IMG/VR virus record: IMGVR_UViG_3300008120_000129
Span: 1-40,624 of that record
DNA length: 40,624 nucleotides
Source of the DNA: a virus
Reading direction: 5' to 3' (one strand)
The position numbers and the translations under genes were made by a program. The notes under the pieces are model-generated. The model saw only the letters and a list, made by a program, of their open reading frames with translations, made no database searches and had not been told where the DNA came from. This document shows, one piece after another, positions 11,983 through 40,624 of this stretch (positions are counted from its first letter, which is position 1; the number at the start of each line of letters is the position of its first letter).

Positions 11983-12006
11983 CACCCGAATACTTACATA
12001 CCAAAA

Positions 12007-12033
12007 GGGGGTTCAAGTCCCCCCTCGGACACC
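12007..12033. other. attP core candidate: 3' end of a tRNA gene
   Basis: GGGGG-TTCAAGT-CCCCC is a canonical T-arm, followed by CTCGGAC as the acceptor 3' half, a discriminator A and CC. No tRNA 5' half lies upstream, so this is only the tRNA 3' portion, as used in phage attachment sites. The matching acceptor 5' half in the host would be GTCCGAG. A tRNA-Leu target is a guess. It lies 92 bp upstream of int. Confidence 0.8.
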
Positions 12034-12150
12034 GCAATACCTATACACAATCTGACGTGGGCAAACGCACCAGATTTGTGGGTACAGATGTTCGATTTTC
12101 CTCTATGGAAGTTACTACTGGGTAACATCGACCACACCGCTATTTTGTTT

Positions 12151-12216: not shown

Positions 12217-12672
12217 ATGGCACCGCCGAAATACACGCCAGACAAAACCACCTTCCAGCAGTGGCTCGCTGAAGGGCTCACCCATCAGCAGATGGCAGAC
12301 CGAGTCTACGAGCAAACAGGCCGAAGGGTGACTAGAGCAGCAATCACCGTCGCACTCATGGGGTACGGCCTGACCAACTCCAAGCCTCGGTACAAGGAGA
12401 CGATCCCCTGGCGGGTGAAGGTGGACCATGCCAAGACCTACCCCATCAGGATGCTTCGGCTTCTCGGTAAGCGCAGGGCAGGGGTAGAGCTGTCTGAGGA
12501 TGACACTCGCCTACTGGACACCTGGCTCGTACACCTGGCTAACGAGAACCTGATCGTGGCCTATGACCCTGGCGATGACATGGGGGTCCACTATGTGGAC
12601 GCTGGCTACAGGGACCATGAGGATGAGGATCTCCCCATCAGAAAGAAGACCATTCACCTAAGCCGCGCCTGA
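12217..12672 (+). CDS. HTH DNA-binding protein, candidate regulator
   Basis: This 151-aa protein has a helix-turn-helix-like N-terminal part at residues about 9-50 (FQQWLAEGLTHQQMADRVYE, then TRAAITVALMGYGL), and a C-terminal part with DTRLLDTWLVHLANENLIVAYDP. It is transcribed divergently from int, behind a perfect -35 box and an inverted repeat, as an immunity or early regulator would be. The ATG at 12217 follows AGGGGG at 6 nt and is preferred over an in-frame TTG at 12190. A DNA-binding role is likely; whether it is the repressor is unproven. Confidence 0.65.
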   Translation: MAPPKYTPDKTTFQQWLAEGLTHQQMADRVYEQTGRRVTRAAITVALMGYGLTNSKPRYKETIPWRVKVDHAKTYPIRMLRLLGKRRAGVELSEDDTRLLDTWLVHLANENLIVAYDPGDDMGVHYVDAGYRDHEDEDLPIRKKTIHLSRA

Positions 12673-12680
12673 GGCGCGGC
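12662..12680 (+). terminator. GC hairpin overlapping the regulator stop
   Basis: GCCGCGCC-TGA-GGCGCGGC, an 8-bp stem whose loop is the stop codon of the HTH gene. It is followed by CCTATATCTATATCT rather than a T-run, so it may slow the ribosome or polymerase or support the terminator just after it. Confidence 0.55.
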
Positions 12681-12691
12681 CCTATATCTAT

Positions 12692-12703
12692 ATCTGTACA
12701 GAT
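12692..12703. other. 12-bp perfect palindrome
   Basis: ATCTGTACAGAT is self-complementary without a spacer. It lies between two GC-rich hairpins and could be a site for a dimeric DNA-binding protein such as the HTH product. Confidence 0.4.
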
Positions 12704-12708
12704 CTAAA

Positions 12709-12745
12709 GGCCAGGCCCTCAGGGGCCTGGCCTATTTCTGTTTCT
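12709..12745 (+). terminator. Intrinsic terminator after the regulator gene
   Basis: GGCCAGGCCC (12709-12718) and GGGCCTGGCC (12723-12732) form a 10-bp stem with loop TCAG, followed by TATTTCTGTTTCT. It separates the regulator transcript from the replication operon. Confidence 0.7.
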
Positions 12746-17239: not shown

Positions 17240-17989
17240 ATGCGCCGCATTTATGTCATTTCAGACATGCAGATACCTTACGTCGATCGTAAAGCAGTGG
17301 ACGCTGTTGCCACGTGTATCGCAGATACCAAGACTGACGACGACATGGTCGTGAGCGTGGGCGATGAAATGGATTTTCAGACCATTTCAAAGTACGCCCA
17401 AGGGTCCGCGCTGGAATGGGAGCGGTCCATCGGTAAGGACCGTGACCTCACGCACCAGATCCTCAAGGATCTACAGGTGCAACACATCTCAAGATCAAAC
17501 CATTGCGACAGGCTGTGGTTGGCGATCACTCGCAGGCTTCCTGGGCTGCTCGGTGCCCCCGAGTTGGAGCTAGAGAACTTCCTCGGCCTCCCCGAACTGG
17601 GCATCACGTACCACAAGAAGGCCTTCAAGATGGCCCCCAACACTTTGCTCATGCATGGCGATGAAGCAGGCGTGTCACAGATCGGTGGATCAACAGCGGC
17701 AGGACTTGTTCGGCGCACAGGAATGTCGTGTGTCGTGGGGCACTCGCACCGCCAGGGATATCAGCCCATCACCTTCGATGTGAATGGCAACTACACGCGC
17801 ACCCTGTTTGGCATGGAGGTGGGTCACCTCACCGATATCAAGTCACCTGGCATGCAGTACGTGAAGACACACAACTGGCAGGCAGGCTGGGCCGTTGTGT
17901 ACGTCGATGGGCAAAACGTCTACCCCCATCTCATCCCCATTTCCGGCAAGTCTTTCGTCTTTGAGGGAGAGCGTTACTCGTGGAGCTGA
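17240..17989 (+). CDS. Calcineurin-like metallophosphoesterase
   Basis: This 249-aa protein has the binuclear-metal motifs in order: SDMQIPYVD (D9), VGDEMD (D42, D45), SNHCDR (N87, H88), LLMHGDE (H139) and VVGHSHRQ (H168, H170). The first motif has Q in place of the usual H of DxH. It may be a DNA nuclease or phosphatase in replication or repair; family members of this size occur in actinophage replication modules. ATG 17240 follows GAGGG. Confidence 0.82.
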   Translation: MRRIYVISDMQIPYVDRKAVDAVATCIADTKTDDDMVVSVGDEMDFQTISKYAQGSALEWERSIGKDRDLTHQILKDLQVQHISRSNHCDRLWLAITRRLPGLLGAPELELENFLGLPELGITYHKKAFKMAPNTLLMHGDEAGVSQIGGSTAAGLVRRTGMSCVVGHSHRQGYQPITFDVNGNYTRTLFGMEVGHLTDIKSPGMQYVKTHNWQAGWAVVYVDGQNVYPHLIPISGKSFVFEGERYSWS

Positions 17990-18603
17990 CTGATCGGGAG
18001 CTACAGGTGATCACTCAGGGGGCGACTAATGCTTACAACGCACAACGAAAGTTCATGGATCTCGGTGACCTCATCAATGAGGCTGTCGTGTGGGCACTCA
18101 CGCACGAGAAGAAGTTGCTCATGTGGCGGGAGAAGGGCAAGCACGGTGAGAACCTGCTGCGATTCTCTGCGAAGCAGCATTGCCTGTCGCTGATTGGCAA
18201 GGAGCGCAGGCGCATCTATGTGTTGGAGAAGGATGACATTGCCTACTACACGCCTGCGATTGTGCGTGAGGTACTGCCTGACATCTTCGACATTGACGAC
18301 TGGCTGTCAGGTTCCACGAATGATCAGGAGCGGGTATCGGGTACGTCCCGACCGAGCGAGGGCAACACTCGCCTCGCCACGGTGGTCGATGTGAAGTCGG
18401 GCTTTGAATCTTTGAGTGATGACGACAAGGCCCTGCTCACCGATCTGTATGCCGATGGTGGTGTCACGCATCAAGTGCTGGCAGCCACGTTGGAGGTTGC
18501 CGAGAAGACCATTCAACGCCGGGAGCAGCGTGCTGTGCAGCGCCTGGTGGACAGGCTTGGTGGTGAACTGCCGTGGTGGGATATGAAAGGGATAAGCGCA
18601 TGA
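17980..18603 (+). CDS. Sigma-70-like HTH protein
   Basis: This 207-aa protein has an N-terminal helical part (NAYNAQRKFMDLGDLINEAV, then LLRFSAKQHCLSLIGKERRR) resembling sigma region 2 and a C-terminal region-4-like HTH (LSDDDKALLTDLYADG, VTHQVLAATLEVAEKTIQRR). A linker with STNDQERVSGTSRPSEG joins them. It could direct host RNA polymerase to phage promoters, such as the motif repeated in the minus-strand block, or be a plain regulator. GTG 17980 overlaps the previous stop; SD GAGGGAG is 10 nt upstream. Confidence 0.65.
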   Translation: MELTDRELQVITQGATNAYNAQRKFMDLGDLINEAVVWALTHEKKLLMWREKGKHGENLLRFSAKQHCLSLIGKERRRIYVLEKDDIAYYTPAIVREVLPDIFDIDDWLSGSTNDQERVSGTSRPSEGNTRLATVVDVKSGFESLSDDDKALLTDLYADGGVTHQVLAATLEVAEKTIQRREQRAVQRLVDRLGGELPWWDMKGISA

Positions 18604-24730: not shown

Positions 24731-25048
24731 CTAGAAGTCTGCCATGACGATCGGCTGGATAAGTCGTCGCTCCGCGGCGTAGTCGGGACCTGTCGGCGCG
24801 TAGTCCGAGCGGACGTAGCGTCGGACAGGAGCATCATCATCGACGGGTGCGATAGGTGCCAGGAGTCCCGTCGACGGGTCCACAACCTCACGCCGCTTAC
24901 GGCGAGGACGGGACACATAGGCAGGAGCCCAACCGTCAGGATGGGAAGCCGTCCGAAGACCATAGGCGCGGCGTGCCGCGACTCTAGGAGTCCTGGCTGG
25001 ATCTATCCATGACGGACCATACACACCCGCGCTAGTGGCGCGGGACAT
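24731..25048 (-). CDS. 105-aa basic protein at the head of the minus block
   Basis: MSRATSAGVYGPSWIDPART..., with KRRE, RRKRREVVDP and a proline-rich middle. The strongly basic N-terminal half (many R) suggests DNA or RNA binding. It is the first gene after the divergent region, with AGGTCAGG before its ATG. No family recognised. Confidence 0.55.
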   Translation of the reverse strand: MSRATSAGVYGPSWIDPARTPRVAARRAYGLRTASHPDGWAPAYVSRPRRKRREVVDPSTGLLAPIAPVDDDAPVRRYVRSDYAPTGPDYAAERRLIQPIVMADF

Positions 25049-25324
25049 AACCTGACCTCCATCTCATCTAGTCTCTTCTTACCTTGCTAGTGCCTAGCCT
25101 ACCACACTTTCACTTACCTGTCAACAGTATTGGGAAGGTTTCCTAAGTACTCCCCCGGCGTCCGGTTTGATGTAGGAGTCTGACCTAGTGGCCTGTCCCT
25201 CTCTTCTGTTGTGACCTCAGTCAATCATACTTCCATCCTCCTGTCAATACCAATTCCCCCATAGGCAGGTAACAGATAGGTCACGCTTACATCAACCCTG
25301 GCACAGCTCTGGAGTGTGTAAGAA

Positions 25325-25341
25325 TCTGGACTAGGTCCAGA
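25325..25341. other. Palindrome, 7+3+7
   Basis: TCTGGAC-TAG-GTCCAGA is a perfect inverted repeat in the divergent region. It has the size of an operator for a dimeric regulator. Confidence 0.6.
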
Positions 25342-25463
25342 CAGACAGGCTACGGTGGCGTAGGTTACGGGTCCGTAGGTTAGGGATGGGGATAGTCTCC
25401 CCTGCTTCCTGTCACCTCTACTGTCCTACATCAAGGGGAGGACAGACCTATATGTATACACAC

Positions 25464-25481
25464 GGGAGGGCAGGCCCTCCC
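25464..25481. other. Palindrome, 8+2+8
   Basis: GGGAGGGC-AG-GCCCTCCC is a perfect 8-bp inverted repeat with a 2-nt centre. It is followed by CCCCTGGGG. It could be a hairpin terminator for leftward read-through or part of a protein site. Confidence 0.6.
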
Positions 25482-25590
25482 CCCTGGGGAGTGGGAGGGG
25501 GACTAGGTGTGATATCCGCATGACAACCCTTGCCCTGATCAGCCTTTGATCAACCGCTTGCGCCTGTCAGCCTGACCCCAGGGTGTTAAG

Positions 25591-25620
25591 AATACTATCT
25601 ATATATATATAATATTATCC
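25591..25620. other. TA-rich tract
   Basis: Bases 25591-25620 are nearly all A and T (TATATATATA-type), unlike the GC-rich surroundings. It could be a DNA-unwinding element of an origin or overlapping -10 boxes. Confidence 0.5.
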
Positions 25621-25766
25621 CTATCACCTTCCGCGTAGCATTGTAATCTTGCTGTCAGAGCTGACCCCTGTACCTGTCTGACCCCACTCCTATCTAGCCT
25701 GTTCTGTACCTGTATGTCCGTTATTTACTGTGAGGTGCGTCACATTTAGGTAAAATCTTGCTGTTC

Positions 25767-25797
25767 AGGTGTCCACCTACCCCCCCTGAAACCAGGG
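25767..25797. other. Two adjoining palindromes
   Basis: AGGTG-TC-CACCT at 25767-25778 and CCCTG-AAAC-CAGGG at 25784-25797, 5 bp apart, start a run of hairpins that leads up to terminase. Confidence 0.5.
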
Positions 25798-25810
25798 ATA
25801 TACATATAGA

Positions 25811-25845
25811 GCCTTTTACTAAAGGCGCCCCTTCAGGGGGGCGCC
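25811..25845. other. Two mutually exclusive hairpins
   Basis: GCCTTT-TACT-AAAGGC at 25811-25826 and GGCGCCCC, 6-nt loop, GGGGCGCC at 25824-25845 share bases 25824-25826. Only one can form at a time in a transcript. The second is very GC-rich and may terminate or stall transcription. Confidence 0.6.
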
Positions 25846-25866
25846 GCTATAGGTACTTCAGTCAGG

Positions 25867-25882
25867 TATAGGTAGACCTATA
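25867..25882. other. Palindrome, 7+2+7
   Basis: TATAGGT-AG-ACCTATA is a perfect inverted repeat with a 2-nt centre. It is operator-sized. Confidence 0.6.
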
Positions 25883-25889
25883 TCTGTAG

Positions 25890-25903
25890 GGACAGGTCTG
25901 TCC
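25890..25903. other. Palindrome, 6+2+6
   Basis: GGACAG-GT-CTGTCC, spaced 7 bp from the preceding palindrome and 12 bp from the next. Confidence 0.5.
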
Positions 25904-25915
25904 TGGCTCCGTCTC

Positions 25916-25929
25916 GGGAGCAAGCTCCC
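25916..25929. other. Palindrome, 6+2+6
   Basis: GGGAGC-AA-GCTCCC. It is one of the evenly placed hairpins before terminase. Confidence 0.5.
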
Positions 25930-25957
25930 TCGCCGGAGTAAATATAGGTTCCGTTTT

Positions 25958-25970
25958 CCACAGGCTGTGG
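25958..25970. other. Palindrome, 6+1+6
   Basis: CCACAG-G-CTGTGG, the last hairpin before terminase, 57 bp from its chosen start codon. Confidence 0.5.
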
Positions 25971-26027
25971 ATATGAGCCTGTGACCCCCCTTGCAGGGTG
26001 TCCCCTGATTTGGGTGAGGAGTCCTGG

Positions 26028-27908
26028 GTGGCTGCGAATAGTGCTGGCAGGAAGCGCAACGATAATCCGGCTGAGGCGAAGAAGCGGTTCCTTGAGTATT
26101 ACAACGAGGGCCGCACGATCAATGATGCGCTGAAGCTGGCGGGTCGGACTCGCACGACGTATGAGACGTGGCGGCGGTCGGATGCCCAGTTCGCGGTGGA
26201 TGCGGATCGGATCCGGCAGATGCGCCTGGGGGCGCAGCATGTGCAGGGCGAGCAACTGTCTTTCTCAGATTTTTCTGAGAGGTATTTGGGCGCTCGGGTG
26301 TTCCCGCACATGCAGAACGTGGTGGACCTGATTGAGGGCAACGAGCCGGATTGGCGTCATCCGGGGATGACGTATGAGCGGGGCGAGCAGGATCTGCTGA
26401 TCGTGAACATGCCCCCTGAGCATGCCAAGACGACGAGCGTGACGATCAACTACGTCACCTACCGGATCTGCATGGATCCCAACGTCAGGATCATTCTGGT
26501 GTCAAAGACCCAGGACATGGCGAAGAAGATGCTGTACGCGGTGAAGACCCGCCTGACGCATCCCAAGTATGCCGAGATGATCGCGAACTACGCCCCGGTC
26601 GGGGGGTTCGATAAGAACTCTGAGGCCTGGAACCAGAACATGATCTACGTCTCTGGCGACGCCAGGGATTCTGGTGAGAAGGACCCGACTGTGCAGGCCC
26701 TGGGTATTCGGGGTCATATCTATGGTGCCCGTGCGGATCTGATCATCATGGACGACTGCGTCGATCTGACGAACGCCCACGAGTTTGAGAAGCAGATTGA
26801 TTGGCTTCAGTCCGAGGTGATCTCGCGTATCTCTAGCCAGGGCGCCCTGCTGGTGGTGGGGACCCGCCTGGCGAGCAAGGATCTGTATTCGGAGCTGCGG
26901 GATAACACCCGCTATCCCGATGAGGTCAGCCCCTGGACGTACCTGGCGATGCCAGCGGTGCTGGAGTTCGCGGAGGAACCGAAGGATTGGTTCACGCTGT
27001 GGCCTAGGTCCAACCAGCCCGAGGCCGGGGCCAGGGGTGAAGACACCGAGCCGGGTGAGGATGGACTGTTCCCGAAATGGGACGGGCCACGCCTAGCCAA
27101 GAAGAGGGCTCGGGTGTCCCCCAGGGCTTGGGCTTTGGTGTATCAGCAGCAGCAGGTAGCCGATCAGGGCATCTTCTCCGCTGAGGCACTACGGGCTTCC
27201 ATCAATGGCAACCGCATGACCGGGTTGATGCCTCGCGGCATGGTGAACTGCCGCCCTGACGGGATGGATGGGCTGATATGTGTAGCTGGCTTGGACCCGG
27301 CAATGGCGGGACATACGGCAGCCGTGGTGATCGGCTTGGATCCAGCGACGCAGAGACGTTACGTGCTGGACATTTGGAACAAGCCAGCGATGACACCGGA
27401 CCAGATCAGGGATTTGATCCGAGAGTGGACCACTAAGTACGGCATTACCGAATGGCGCGTGGAGAAGAACGCCTTCCAGTCGATGCTCACCCAAGACCGT
27501 GAGGTCAGGGAGTATCTGGCTGGTGCTGGTGCGATCCTGCGGGAGCATTTCACCGGATCCAATAAGCATGATGTGGATTTCGGTGTCGCGTCGATGACGA
27601 CGCTGTGGGCTGGTTGGGAAGATAAGCGGCAGTTGATTGAGTTGCCTTCGACTGCGATCTCTGAATCCAGCAAGGCCCTGGTAGAGCAGTTGCTGATCTG
27701 GCATCCTGCCGCACCGAAAACACAAAAGACCGACATCGTGATGGCGTTGTGGTTTGCCGAGTTGGGATGTCGTGATCGCGTGACCGCGATGAGTAACTAC
27801 GCCCGGTCCCATGTGAATAACCCGTTCGTGACTCGTTTCGATAAGGCGGGTAGGGCGACGGTGAACCTAAATGATGCGGAACGTGACCGCATGTTCGTGA
27901 CTCTGTAG
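26028..27908 (+). CDS. terL: Terminase large subunit with N-terminal HTH
   Basis: This 626-aa protein cuts and pumps DNA into the procapsid. GTG 26028 is chosen because GAGGAG lies 6 nt upstream; a GTG at 25998 has only a weak site. Residues about 12-60 (AKKRFLEYYNEGRTINDALK, then TYETWRRSDAQF) look like the HTH found in small terminases. Next come the ATPase (Walker A variant PPEHAKTT, Walker B LIIMDDC) and the RNase H-like nuclease (AGLDPAMAGHTAAVV, later IVMALWFAELG). No separate small subunit is seen. Confidence 0.88.
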   Translation: MAANSAGRKRNDNPAEAKKRFLEYYNEGRTINDALKLAGRTRTTYETWRRSDAQFAVDADRIRQMRLGAQHVQGEQLSFSDFSERYLGARVFPHMQNVVDLIEGNEPDWRHPGMTYERGEQDLLIVNMPPEHAKTTSVTINYVTYRICMDPNVRIILVSKTQDMAKKMLYAVKTRLTHPKYAEMIANYAPVGGFDKNSEAWNQNMIYVSGDARDSGEKDPTVQALGIRGHIYGARADLIIMDDCVDLTNAHEFEKQIDWLQSEVISRISSQGALLVVGTRLASKDLYSELRDNTRYPDEVSPWTYLAMPAVLEFAEEPKDWFTLWPRSNQPEAGARGEDTEPGEDGLFPKWDGPRLAKKRARVSPRAWALVYQQQQVADQGIFSAEALRASINGNRMTGLMPRGMVNCRPDGMDGLICVAGLDPAMAGHTAAVVIGLDPATQRRYVLDIWNKPAMTPDQIRDLIREWTTKYGITEWRVEKNAFQSMLTQDREVREYLAGAGAILREHFTGSNKHDVDFGVASMTTLWAGWEDKRQLIELPSTAISESSKALVEQLLIWHPAAPKTQKTDIVMALWFAELGCRDRVTAMSNYARSHVNNPFVTRFDKAGRATVNLNDAERDRMFVTL

Positions 27909-38282: not shown

Positions 38283-40594
38283 TGGCTGACCAGCCGAGAA
38301 CTGATCCTGATGCCCCTTCGGGTGGCCCTAACCCCAGCGGTCGTGGGCGTAGGAAGCCTGAGGCTATTCGTATCGCCCAGCGTGACATTCGTCTTGCCGA
38401 GCAGGCGCTGAAGGATGCCAAGGAACTTGGCTCCGCTACGGGCGTTACCGCTGCTGAAAAGCGACTAAAGGAAGCACGACAGGCGCTTCGCACGATCCAG
38501 AATGCTGATCCTGGTGAGGACCGCCAGGATGCTCGCCGTGACTTCATGCAGGACTACTTTGAGCGTCTTGGTCCTGAGGCTGCAAGCCTCGCGAAGCGTG
38601 ACCCTGAACTGCGGAAACTGTTCGATCAGGCTATTCGCGAGGGCTGGGACGAAGCCAAGTTTGATTCGGAGTTAAAGAAGACTGACTGGTGGAGGGATCC
38701 CGCGAAGGGTTCCTCTTGGCAGAACGCTTTCCGAATGGAGTTTGAGGGTTCTCCTGGTCAATGGAATGAAGTGCTTGAGGATGCCAAGCGCACGATCCGC
38801 AAGCTGGCTGACGACACATACGACATGGTCATTGATGAAGCGACTTTGACCAAGATGGCACGTCGCTACCTGTACCAGGGCTGGGGCAAGAACGATAACG
38901 AGGGCCTGCGGGTTTGGCTGTCATCTCAGTTCTCTAAGCAGTCTGAGGCTGGTGGGGACAAGTTCAAGCCTGGTGGCTTGTACACGTCTACTTACAACAC
39001 TTTGCGTGATGCTGCCCGTGCCTACGGCGTTGATCGTGACGGCGGCTGGTTGGACAAGACTACTCGTGACATCCTGAATCCCAACTCTGGCTACTCCGAT
39101 GACGATGCCTGGAATGAGCTGATTGCCGAGGCTGAGTCAATCTACCCGGTGTTTGCGGGGAAGTTGTCGAAGGACCGCTCTGTTCGGGATCTAGGTGCTG
39201 GCTACATCAATCAGTTGTACAGACGTCTTGAATTGGGTAGCCCCGATGAGGTGGATCTGACTGATCCTTTGCTGCGTAAGGCGTTCACGACACCTAACGA
39301 GAAGGGTGAGCCTGCGCTCATGCCGCTGTGGCAGTTTGAGCAGGAGATTAAGAAGGACGGTCGTTGGCAGTACACGACTAATGCTTTGTCCACCTATTCG
39401 CAGATTAAGGACAAGAAGCCTGACCCTATGGCTAAGGGAACTGACCTATACAACTACATAGGCAAGTTGTCTATGGATTTGCAAAAGGGCTTGATCAGCC
39501 TTGAGGATGCCAATGAGCTTAACGCCCGAGCGCGGGAACTTGCTGGCAATCGTGGTCAGTTCGGTGCAGACGTGCGCCAAGCGTTGCGCTACGGCGACCG
39601 TCGAATCGCACCGCCTACTGATCCTGTAACTGACCCGACTGATCCCGTGACGGATCCTACGGATCCTCCTGACGATCCTCCTGAACCTCCTGGCCTCGAC
39701 GCTGGAACGGTGAATGCCCGTAAGTCCGCTCGTGAATACCTGGACGGCTTGTTCAAGCAGTTCGGGTTCTCGGACGCAGACAGGGCCAAACTCCTTGGTG
39801 AGGTTGACGGCTGGATTACTGAGGGTCTAGCTGACGCTGGTACTGATGCGATCTTGATGAAGTTCCGTGGAACCACGACTTACGCGAACCGCTTTGCCGG
39901 CATGGCTGAACTGATCAGCAGAGGTCAGGCAGTTAGTGAGGCTGAGTACATTCAGCTTGAGTCTTCGTACCGGAACGTGATGCAGAACTATGGTCTGCCT
40001 TCCACCTTCTATGACAACCCTGCTGACTATGCCCGACTGATCGGTGCTGGCTTGTCAGTCAAGGAAGTTGAGGAGCGGGTGGTTGCTGCGAAGCAGTCCC
40101 TGAATCCGCTGGTCGCTCAGGAACTTGAGCAGTATTACGGCGTGAGTCAGGGCACTCAGATGGCCTACCTTCTTGGCCTCACGAACGAGACGGGCGTTGC
40201 CCTGGAGTCCGCTCGCACTCAGCAGCAGATCCGACAAGAGGGCCGTGCAGCCCAGATTGGTGCTGCTGCGGAGCGTGCAGGGTTCAGCATGGACAAGACG
40301 TTCGCGGAGGGTCTGGGTGGCACCAGCCTGGGTAAGACCATTGACCCGTTCCAGATGGGCACTCTTGCGAACTTGGAGGGAACGTTTGACCAGGCACGCA
40401 GGGTTGCGGACAGGGACACGACCCTTGCCGCTATCGACACGGAAACGTATAACCAGAGGGATGCTCTTAGTGCTGCTTTCGGTGATGAGCAAAAGAAGCT
40501 CGCGTCGGAAAGGCGTGCCCGTAGGGAACGTGCAAGGTTCGCTGGCACGTCTGGGGCTGCTGCGTCATCTCTCGGGGTCGAAAGGAATCTTTAG
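38282..40594 (+). CDS. 770-aa helical virion protein
   Basis: ATG 38282 is chosen (TGATG overlap) over an in-frame GTG at 38279. The N-terminal part has a basic G/P/R-rich start and long charged helices (AIRIAQRDIRLAEQALKDAK). A DPT-repeat linker at about residues 440-475 (DPVTDPTDPVTDPTD) divides it from a helical C-terminal half. There is no catalytic motif. It is probably an internal or ejection protein paired with the giant protein. The 3' end is repeated at 1-84. Confidence 0.6.
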   Translation: MADQPRTDPDAPSGGPNPSGRGRRKPEAIRIAQRDIRLAEQALKDAKELGSATGVTAAEKRLKEARQALRTIQNADPGEDRQDARRDFMQDYFERLGPEAASLAKRDPELRKLFDQAIREGWDEAKFDSELKKTDWWRDPAKGSSWQNAFRMEFEGSPGQWNEVLEDAKRTIRKLADDTYDMVIDEATLTKMARRYLYQGWGKNDNEGLRVWLSSQFSKQSEAGGDKFKPGGLYTSTYNTLRDAARAYGVDRDGGWLDKTTRDILNPNSGYSDDDAWNELIAEAESIYPVFAGKLSKDRSVRDLGAGYINQLYRRLELGSPDEVDLTDPLLRKAFTTPNEKGEPALMPLWQFEQEIKKDGRWQYTTNALSTYSQIKDKKPDPMAKGTDLYNYIGKLSMDLQKGLISLEDANELNARARELAGNRGQFGADVRQALRYGDRRIAPPTDPVTDPTDPVTDPTDPPDDPPEPPGLDAGTVNARKSAREYLDGLFKQFGFSDADRAKLLGEVDGWITEGLADAGTDAILMKFRGTTTYANRFAGMAELISRGQAVSEAEYIQLESSYRNVMQNYGLPSTFYDNPADYARLIGAGLSVKEVEERVVAAKQSLNPLVAQELEQYYGVSQGTQMAYLLGLTNETGVALESARTQQQIRQEGRAAQIGAAAERAGFSMDKTFAEGLGGTSLGKTIDPFQMGTLANLEGTFDQARRVADRDTTLAAIDTETYNQRDALSAAFGDEQKKLASERRARRERARFAGTSGAAASSLGVERNL

Positions 40595-40624
40595 CAAGTG
40601 AGCGATTGGGATTGGTACAGAGTT
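40511..40624. repeat. Terminal direct repeat, second copy
   Basis: Identical to 1-114. See that entry: overlap of a circular assembly inside the 770-aa gene. Confidence 0.95.

Follow-up and report, generated by a model that had tools for sequence, protein, structure and literature searches.

The palindrome field at positions 25325-25970 of the window (the whole stretch of DNA that was analysed, an entire virus record of 40,624 bases) is, with a probability of about 0.8, a packaging end of the direct terminal repeat (DTR) type followed by the control region and leader of the packaging genes. The palindromes are not one kind of thing, and belong to two adjoining working parts. This kind of site, a DTR packaging end together with a late-operon control region, is known and is found here in an uncultured lineage; the conserved anatomy of the region has apparently not been described. 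When an uncultured phage is assembled from a metagenome as a circle, its genome ends can usually not be read off; here, a short motif together with its cognate terminase would allow ends to be predicted for a whole group of environmental phages.

All 14 palindromes of the original prediction were found in the sequence of 25325-25970, among them TGTATACA (25451-25458), which has an arm of 4. The field is non-coding, as had been stated, and sits between a leftward gene (start near 25048) and the gene of the large terminase subunit (TerL); a minus-strand open reading frame at 25878-26255 that overlaps TerL is probably spurious. When perfect inverted repeats with loops of 0 to 6 were counted against 300 dinucleotide shuffles, the proposed excess over shuffled sequence was evident: 24 repeats with arms of at least 5 were observed versus 4.8 ± 2.3, and 11 with arms of at least 6 versus 1.3 expected, counts reached by 0 of 300 shuffles in either case and by 0 of 200 windows of the same length tiled over the genome, of which the field is the highest. 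The last eight palindromes had been described as clustered within about 200 bp, and 25770-25975 indeed holds 9 inverted repeats versus 1.5 expected (0 of 300 shuffles). The excess is family-wide: at 77 non-redundant, terminase-linked loci, 897 repeats with arms of at least 5 were observed versus 338 expected, and 448 with arms of at least 6 versus 88. The claim that this is not one repeated operator was correct. The covariation looked for among relatives is found in hairpin 1 (GGCGCCCC-6-GGGGCGCC), where pairing is kept while sequence is altered, but several palindromes are unconserved, namely GTCAG-1-CTGAC, GTCAG-2-CTGAC, AGGTG-2-CACCT, and CCCTG-4-CAGGG, which may be incidental; TGTGA-N6-TCACA and CCACAG-n-CTGTGG keep their arms in relatives, which is the behaviour of protein sites. 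Another palindrome-rich stretch of the window (12660-12735) holds two GC-rich hairpins 3' of an open reading frame, probably terminators.

Positions 1-114 and 40511-40624 are identical, an exact head-to-tail overlap inside coding DNA, and the record is thus a circle of 40510 bp that the assembly opened at an arbitrary point. The two window ends adjoin each other in two relatives (L008 and L013), and the record of L008 likewise closes on itself; these assemblies therefore run through the predicted junction as a circle, which is what a collapsed DTR predicts. No relative emerged when phage records were searched at the nucleotide level, and homology was for this reason traced through TerL, which is 83-100% identical to the terminases of metagenome phages and approximately 48-50% identical, over the whole protein, to those of the Streptomyces cluster BF podoviruses (Beephvirinae). 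The portal protein gene follows TerL, and other phage genes encode a tyrosine integrase, a DnaB-like helicase, a primase, and a sigma-70 region 4 protein. In the aligned upstream regions of the relatives, conserved blocks stand amid otherwise divergent DNA: the direct repeat GGTAACgattaGGTAAC, GGATAGTCTC, TGACCCCAGGGTKTTAA with the TATATATATA tract, TGTGA-N6-TCACA, TTCAGGTGTCC, TATATATATAGA, a GC-rich hairpin, and TTGTCCACAGGCTGTGGATA. The features of the predicted packaging end are as follows (a caret marks a cut):

25268-25284, + strand: direct repeat GGTAACAGATAGGTCAC with an 11-bp period, some 110 bp to the left of the predicted left end
25388-25402, + strand: palindrome GGGGATA^GTCTCCCC holding the predicted left end, cut between 25394 and 25395, placed by contig starts and BF genome starts
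25395-25614, + strand: predicted DTR of 220 bp, single copy in the circular assembly, placed by homology to BF DTRs
25464-25481, + strand: palindrome GGGAGGGC-AG-GCCCTCCC inside the DTR, from the inverted-repeat count
25574-25589, + strand: conserved 16-mer GACCCCAGGGTGTTAA, candidate site of recognition by the terminase, towards the right end of the predicted DTR
25600-25621, + strand: TATATATATA tract and predicted right end near 25614^25615 (ATA^TTATCCC), placed relative to the 16-mer

The BF podoviruses supply the homology on which the DTR is predicted. Their genomes begin approximately 620-680 bp upstream of TerL; FlowerPower and its sisters have a 253-bp DTR with termini determined from reads (PMC9753666), and the DTR of Destructrice is 265 bp (PMC13097060). 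The deposited records give DTRs of 253 bp (FlowerPower), 276 bp (Manuel), 264 bp (WRightOn), 274 bp (HaugeAnator), and 266 bp (RosePharie); these five records start (A/T)^GTCC(C/T), and all end GGAGTG^AGTCC. Both groups share, in the same order, a left end of the form A^GTCYC, CCCCAGGG-TTAA close to the right end (a predicted end in this phage), TGTGA-N6-TCACA shortly beyond that end, a TATATATA box, a GC-rich hairpin, and then a TerL about 50% identical; they differ in DTR length (253-276 bp versus a predicted 220 bp) and in the bases after the right end (AGTCCCC in BF phages, TATCCC after the predicted end here). The deposited end repeat of one further record, Streptomyces phage Abafar (PP750865), is 396 bp and starts and stops elsewhere than those of its sisters (264-276 bp), and its termini may be mis-set.

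The predicted left end agrees with A^GTCYC, and GATA^GTCTCCC occurs once in the window. Two relatives from different samples (L089, 28663 bp, and L133, 12519 bp) have GTCTC exactly as their first bases, where other relatives read GGAATAGGAGA^GTCTC, and two more begin 1 nt (L028) and 5 nt (L010) before it; in these clades approximately 13 contig ends were counted within 1.1 kb upstream of TerL, and these starts are 4 of them, which chance hardly explains. The right end, near 25614^25615, is placed by homology of position only: the 16-mer lies 39 nt from it, in keeping with the approximately 37 nt expected for CCCCAGGG-TTAA, since the BF counterpart CCC(C/A)GGG-TTGTTAA, located in three records, lies 37 nt inside the right DTR end, and the distance resembles that of GTG^AGTCCCC in BF phages. 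None of the 63 contigs carrying the 16-mer has an end at the predicted right end, and when the leftward neighbour gene was used as the query, no contigs that end at the junction were retrieved. The best match to the left end falls 18-27 nt after TTAA in most lineages, with single scores that are not significant, and in most single lineages the two predicted cut sites, left and right, are no more alike than chance would make them. TerL starts approximately 410 bp past the predicted right end. The DTR part is not more RNA-structured than shuffles (z -0.9), and most palindromes inside it are not conserved individually; at the place of GGGAGGGC-AG-GCCCTCCC, some relatives carry a GC-rich inverted repeat of other sequence. 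Of 10 close relatives tested, 9 have the GGTMACNNNTNGGTMAC/GATAAC form of the direct repeat to the left of the left end. The 11-bp-period repeat GGTAACgattaGGTAAC is found there in L131, L100, L014, L019, and L027-L034, and some clades have it to the right of the DTR as well. One contig (L007/L124) that is otherwise identical to the window in this stretch lacks 56 bp immediately past the predicted right end (near 25622-25677).

For 25395-25614, the suggestion of a packaging site thus has good support from homology to published DTRs, from the terminase-linked 16-mer, and from contig ends. A cos site, with one staggered cut at GGATA^GTCTC, cohesive ends, and no terminal repeat, was the first reading of the contigs that start with GTCTC, and was dropped, as BF records repeat their first 250-280 bp at the other end. 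A single cut would account for contigs that begin at or near A^GTCTC while none ends at the predicted right end, and GGGGATAGTCTCCCC is roughly symmetric; the homologous phages, however, have published DTRs, the conserved 16-mer lies towards the opposite end of the interval, and assemblies circularise with overlaps elsewhere, which a dead end at a cos should hinder. Most contigs of the relatives pass through the junction, and circular closure is observed, where a cos would have assemblies end at the cut and fail to close. A cos site is accordingly unlikely. In the DTR reading, 25395-25614 would be a concatemer junction cut by the terminase, with cuts proposed at both ends of the repeat and duplication of the repeat meanwhile, and the virion DNA would be linear with a DTR of approximately 220 bp, starting with GTCTC (25395), extending rightward across TerL and the structural genes, and closing with the second copy. 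Concatemer junctions of the T7 type have a short DTR, are cut at both repeat ends, and have transcription nearby. The predicted junction would resemble them by analogy in these three respects, but differs in that no sequence relationship is shown, in that TerL carries a helix-turn-helix-like domain, and in that a separate small terminase was not noticed here, short of a full search of small open reading frames.

An exact-match search of 2.9 million viral contigs of IMG/VR with the 16-mer GACCCCAGGGTKTTAA returned 63 matches, 59 of which come from this terminase family: 56 are followed, 270-530 nt downstream, by the start of a same-strand TerL homologue, and in 3 the contig, of the same clade by sequence, stops before TerL. 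The other 4 are one unrelated sequence. A promoter-like TTAAGA-16-TATAAT overlaps the 16-mer; the notion that the 16-mer is simply a promoter was rejected, because BF phages are without the TATA part there. The terminase would most likely recognise the junction at GACCCCAGGGTKTTAA near the right end, possibly via its own N-terminal domain. TerL matches phrog_38 (TerL) with an E value of 7e-68, and its residues 15-57 match phrog_4044 (the small terminase subunit, TerS) weakly (E 0.0045). The AlphaFold2 (AF2) model of residues 14-74 is a helix-turn-helix-like bundle followed by a long helix, with pLDDT approximately 90 in the core helices, and the weak Foldseek matches, all with E >1, include the small-terminase-like structures 2ao9 and 3hef (Sf6 small terminase, TM 0.53, rmsd 1.8). 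A DNA-recognition domain built into TerL is plausible, and the 16-mer is a candidate recognition sequence for this terminase, which has no apparent separate small subunit.

Between the predicted right end and TerL, 25615-26027 would be the control region and mRNA leader of the late, or packaging, operon, in which the proposed order is a Crp/GlxR-type operator, then a TATA-box promoter, then several short GC-rich hairpins, and finally TerL:

25729-25744, + strand: putative Crp/GlxR-type operator TGTGAGGTGCGTCACA, a consensus match conserved in the family
25799-25811, + strand: TATACATATAGA-type TATA box (TATATATATAGA in relatives, TATATATAATG in BF phages)
25811-25826, + strand: hairpin GCCTTT-TACT-AAAGGC, weakly conserved, probable 5' end of the leader
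25824-25845, + strand: hairpin 1, GGCGCCCC-loop-GGGGCGCC, co-varying, in the same place in relatives with different arms
25867-25882, + strand: hairpin TATAGGT-AG-ACCTATA, unconserved, other sequence in relatives
25890-25903, + strand: hairpin GGACAG-GT-CTGTCC, from the inverted-repeat count and RNA folding
25906-25929, + strand: hairpin 2, with the alternatives GCTCC/GGAGC and GGGAGC-AA-GCTCCC, in the same place in relatives with other complementary arms
25954-25973, + strand: TTTTCCACAGGCTGTGGATA, two back-to-back DnaA-box-like 9-mers, conserved in near relatives
26013-26021, + strand: Shine-Dalgarno sequence GGTGAGGAG, conserved in relatives with TTG or GTG at the same place
26028-27908, + strand: TerL with an N-terminal helix-turn-helix-like domain (residues 14-74), from phrog_38 and the AF2 model

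The true start of TerL is likely the GTG at 26028, judging from comparison with relatives. The operator TGTGAGGTGCGTCACA is the only match in the window with at most one mismatch. A site of the TGTGA-N6-TCACA type is present upstream of TerL in 26 of the 77 non-redundant loci, versus approximately 0.2 by a simple base-frequency estimate, and also in BF phages, shortly past the DTR end. Its arms are invariant and its centre is variable among relatives, and it therefore behaves as a dimer operator rather than an RNA stem. As quoted in PMC10033298, the consensus is GTG(N)6GNCAC for Crp of S. coelicolor and GTG(N)8CAC for GlxR; 25729-25744, with its conserved arms and free centre, fits both, whereas the copies in BF phages match GTG(N)8CAC only. 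Host Crp may bind this putative operator, which is like the Crp/GlxR operators of actinobacteria in consensus and unlike them in being carried by a phage beside a packaging end. The TATA box at 25799-25811 is the probable core promoter of the terminase operon, and no intrinsic terminator was found. A tRNA search of the whole window was likewise negative. The sigma-70 region 4 match of the protein encoded at 17980-18603 has an E value of 4e-5, just below the curated cut-off; such a protein could serve TATA-box promoters without a clear -35 element.

The proposal of a long structured RNA holds for the part adjacent to TerL, as independent local hairpins of an mRNA leader, and fails for the DTR part and for a conserved fold like that of the phi29 packaging RNA (pRNA). 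The leader at 25812-26031 has a folding energy of -99.2 kcal/mol (z -3.3), a value as low as this being reached by 0 of 200 shuffles. Across 46 loci the mean z of the last 200 nt before TerL is -3.5, versus -1.5 within TerL (leader versus coding, paired t-test p ~7e-9), the window's own last 200 nt having a z of -2.1 in this run; the mean z in the DTR is -1.4 (34 loci). Hairpin 1 lies 21-26 nt past the TATA box in relatives, with arms that differ yet pair: GGCGCCCC, GCGGCCCC, GCCACCCC, and GGCAGCCCC in near relatives, TCGGCCCC and CCAGCCCC in BF phages. Changes on both sides were counted in four of its outer pairs, on hand-aligned arms, which leans towards structure; the count was made by hand because RNAalifold, applied to the relatives' alignment, mis-registered the hairpins and gave no common fold or useful consensus. 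In an independent check, 16 of 27 loci had a stem of at least 6 bp in the 70 nt that follow the TATA box, versus 2.5 expected. In place of hairpin 2, relatives have other complementary arms (GTCTTC/GAAGAC and GTCCTC/GAGGAC). Since hairpin number and sequence vary, these look like interchangeable leader stem-loops, not one folded RNA, and they most likely stabilise or regulate the leader transcript.

A packaging RNA of the phi29 type, or another functional non-coding RNA, would also explain why 25812-26031 folds better than 200 of 200 shuffles and why hairpin 1 co-varies, but such an RNA should have a conserved family fold near the genome end, and the alignment yields none; an Rfam search of the whole window gave no match, the hairpins differ in number and sequence between lineages, and the motor is an ordinary TerL rather than a protein-primed system of the phi29 type, all of which makes this exceedingly improbable. 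A replication origin, the other suggestion of the original prediction, would consist of the DnaA-box pair, AT tracts, and inverted repeats where leftward and rightward genes diverge, and is very unlikely. It draws on the TTGTCCACA-type boxes of TTTTCCACAGGCTGTGGATA, on TTGTCCACAGGCTGTGGAT in 10 near-relative loci 70-80 nt before TerL, on the TATATATATA tracts, and on the cumulative GC skew, which reaches a local minimum near 25-26 kb, although a change of gene direction alone yields such a minimum. The pair is single, is lost in two relatives (L019 and L015), and is not part of an array, TTGTCCACA having 9 matches with at most one mismatch in the window versus 10.6 expected; the replication genes sit at 13-19 kb. 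Box pairs are also common in unrelated phages: 39 of 59 matches of TGTCCACAGGCTGTGGAT are without such a terminase, and TGTCCACAGGCTGTGGAT was for this reason rejected as a terminase-specific motif.

With a Crp-type operator beside the predicted packaging end, Streptomyces offers a way to test whether late phage expression is linked to host metabolism. A combined proposal, in which TerL with a TerS-like domain reads the 16-bp motif and the host cAMP receptor protein gates the adjacent packaging operon, is rather doubtful; if true, it would tie packaging to a host nutrient signal across a wide phage group. Next to the integrase gene, AAAAGGGGGTTCAAGTCCCCCCTCGGACACC (12003-12034) resembles a tRNA 3' end and is likely the attP, and the phage is therefore probably temperate; its integrase sets it apart from the BF phage Destructrice, which is described as lytic and without one (PMC13097060). 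Two further TerL relatives (L211 and L212, the latter a Streptomyces hoynatensis contig of 46451 bp) have long arrays of GC-rich hairpins before the gene, and L212 looks like a BF-related phage genome within a bacterial assembly.
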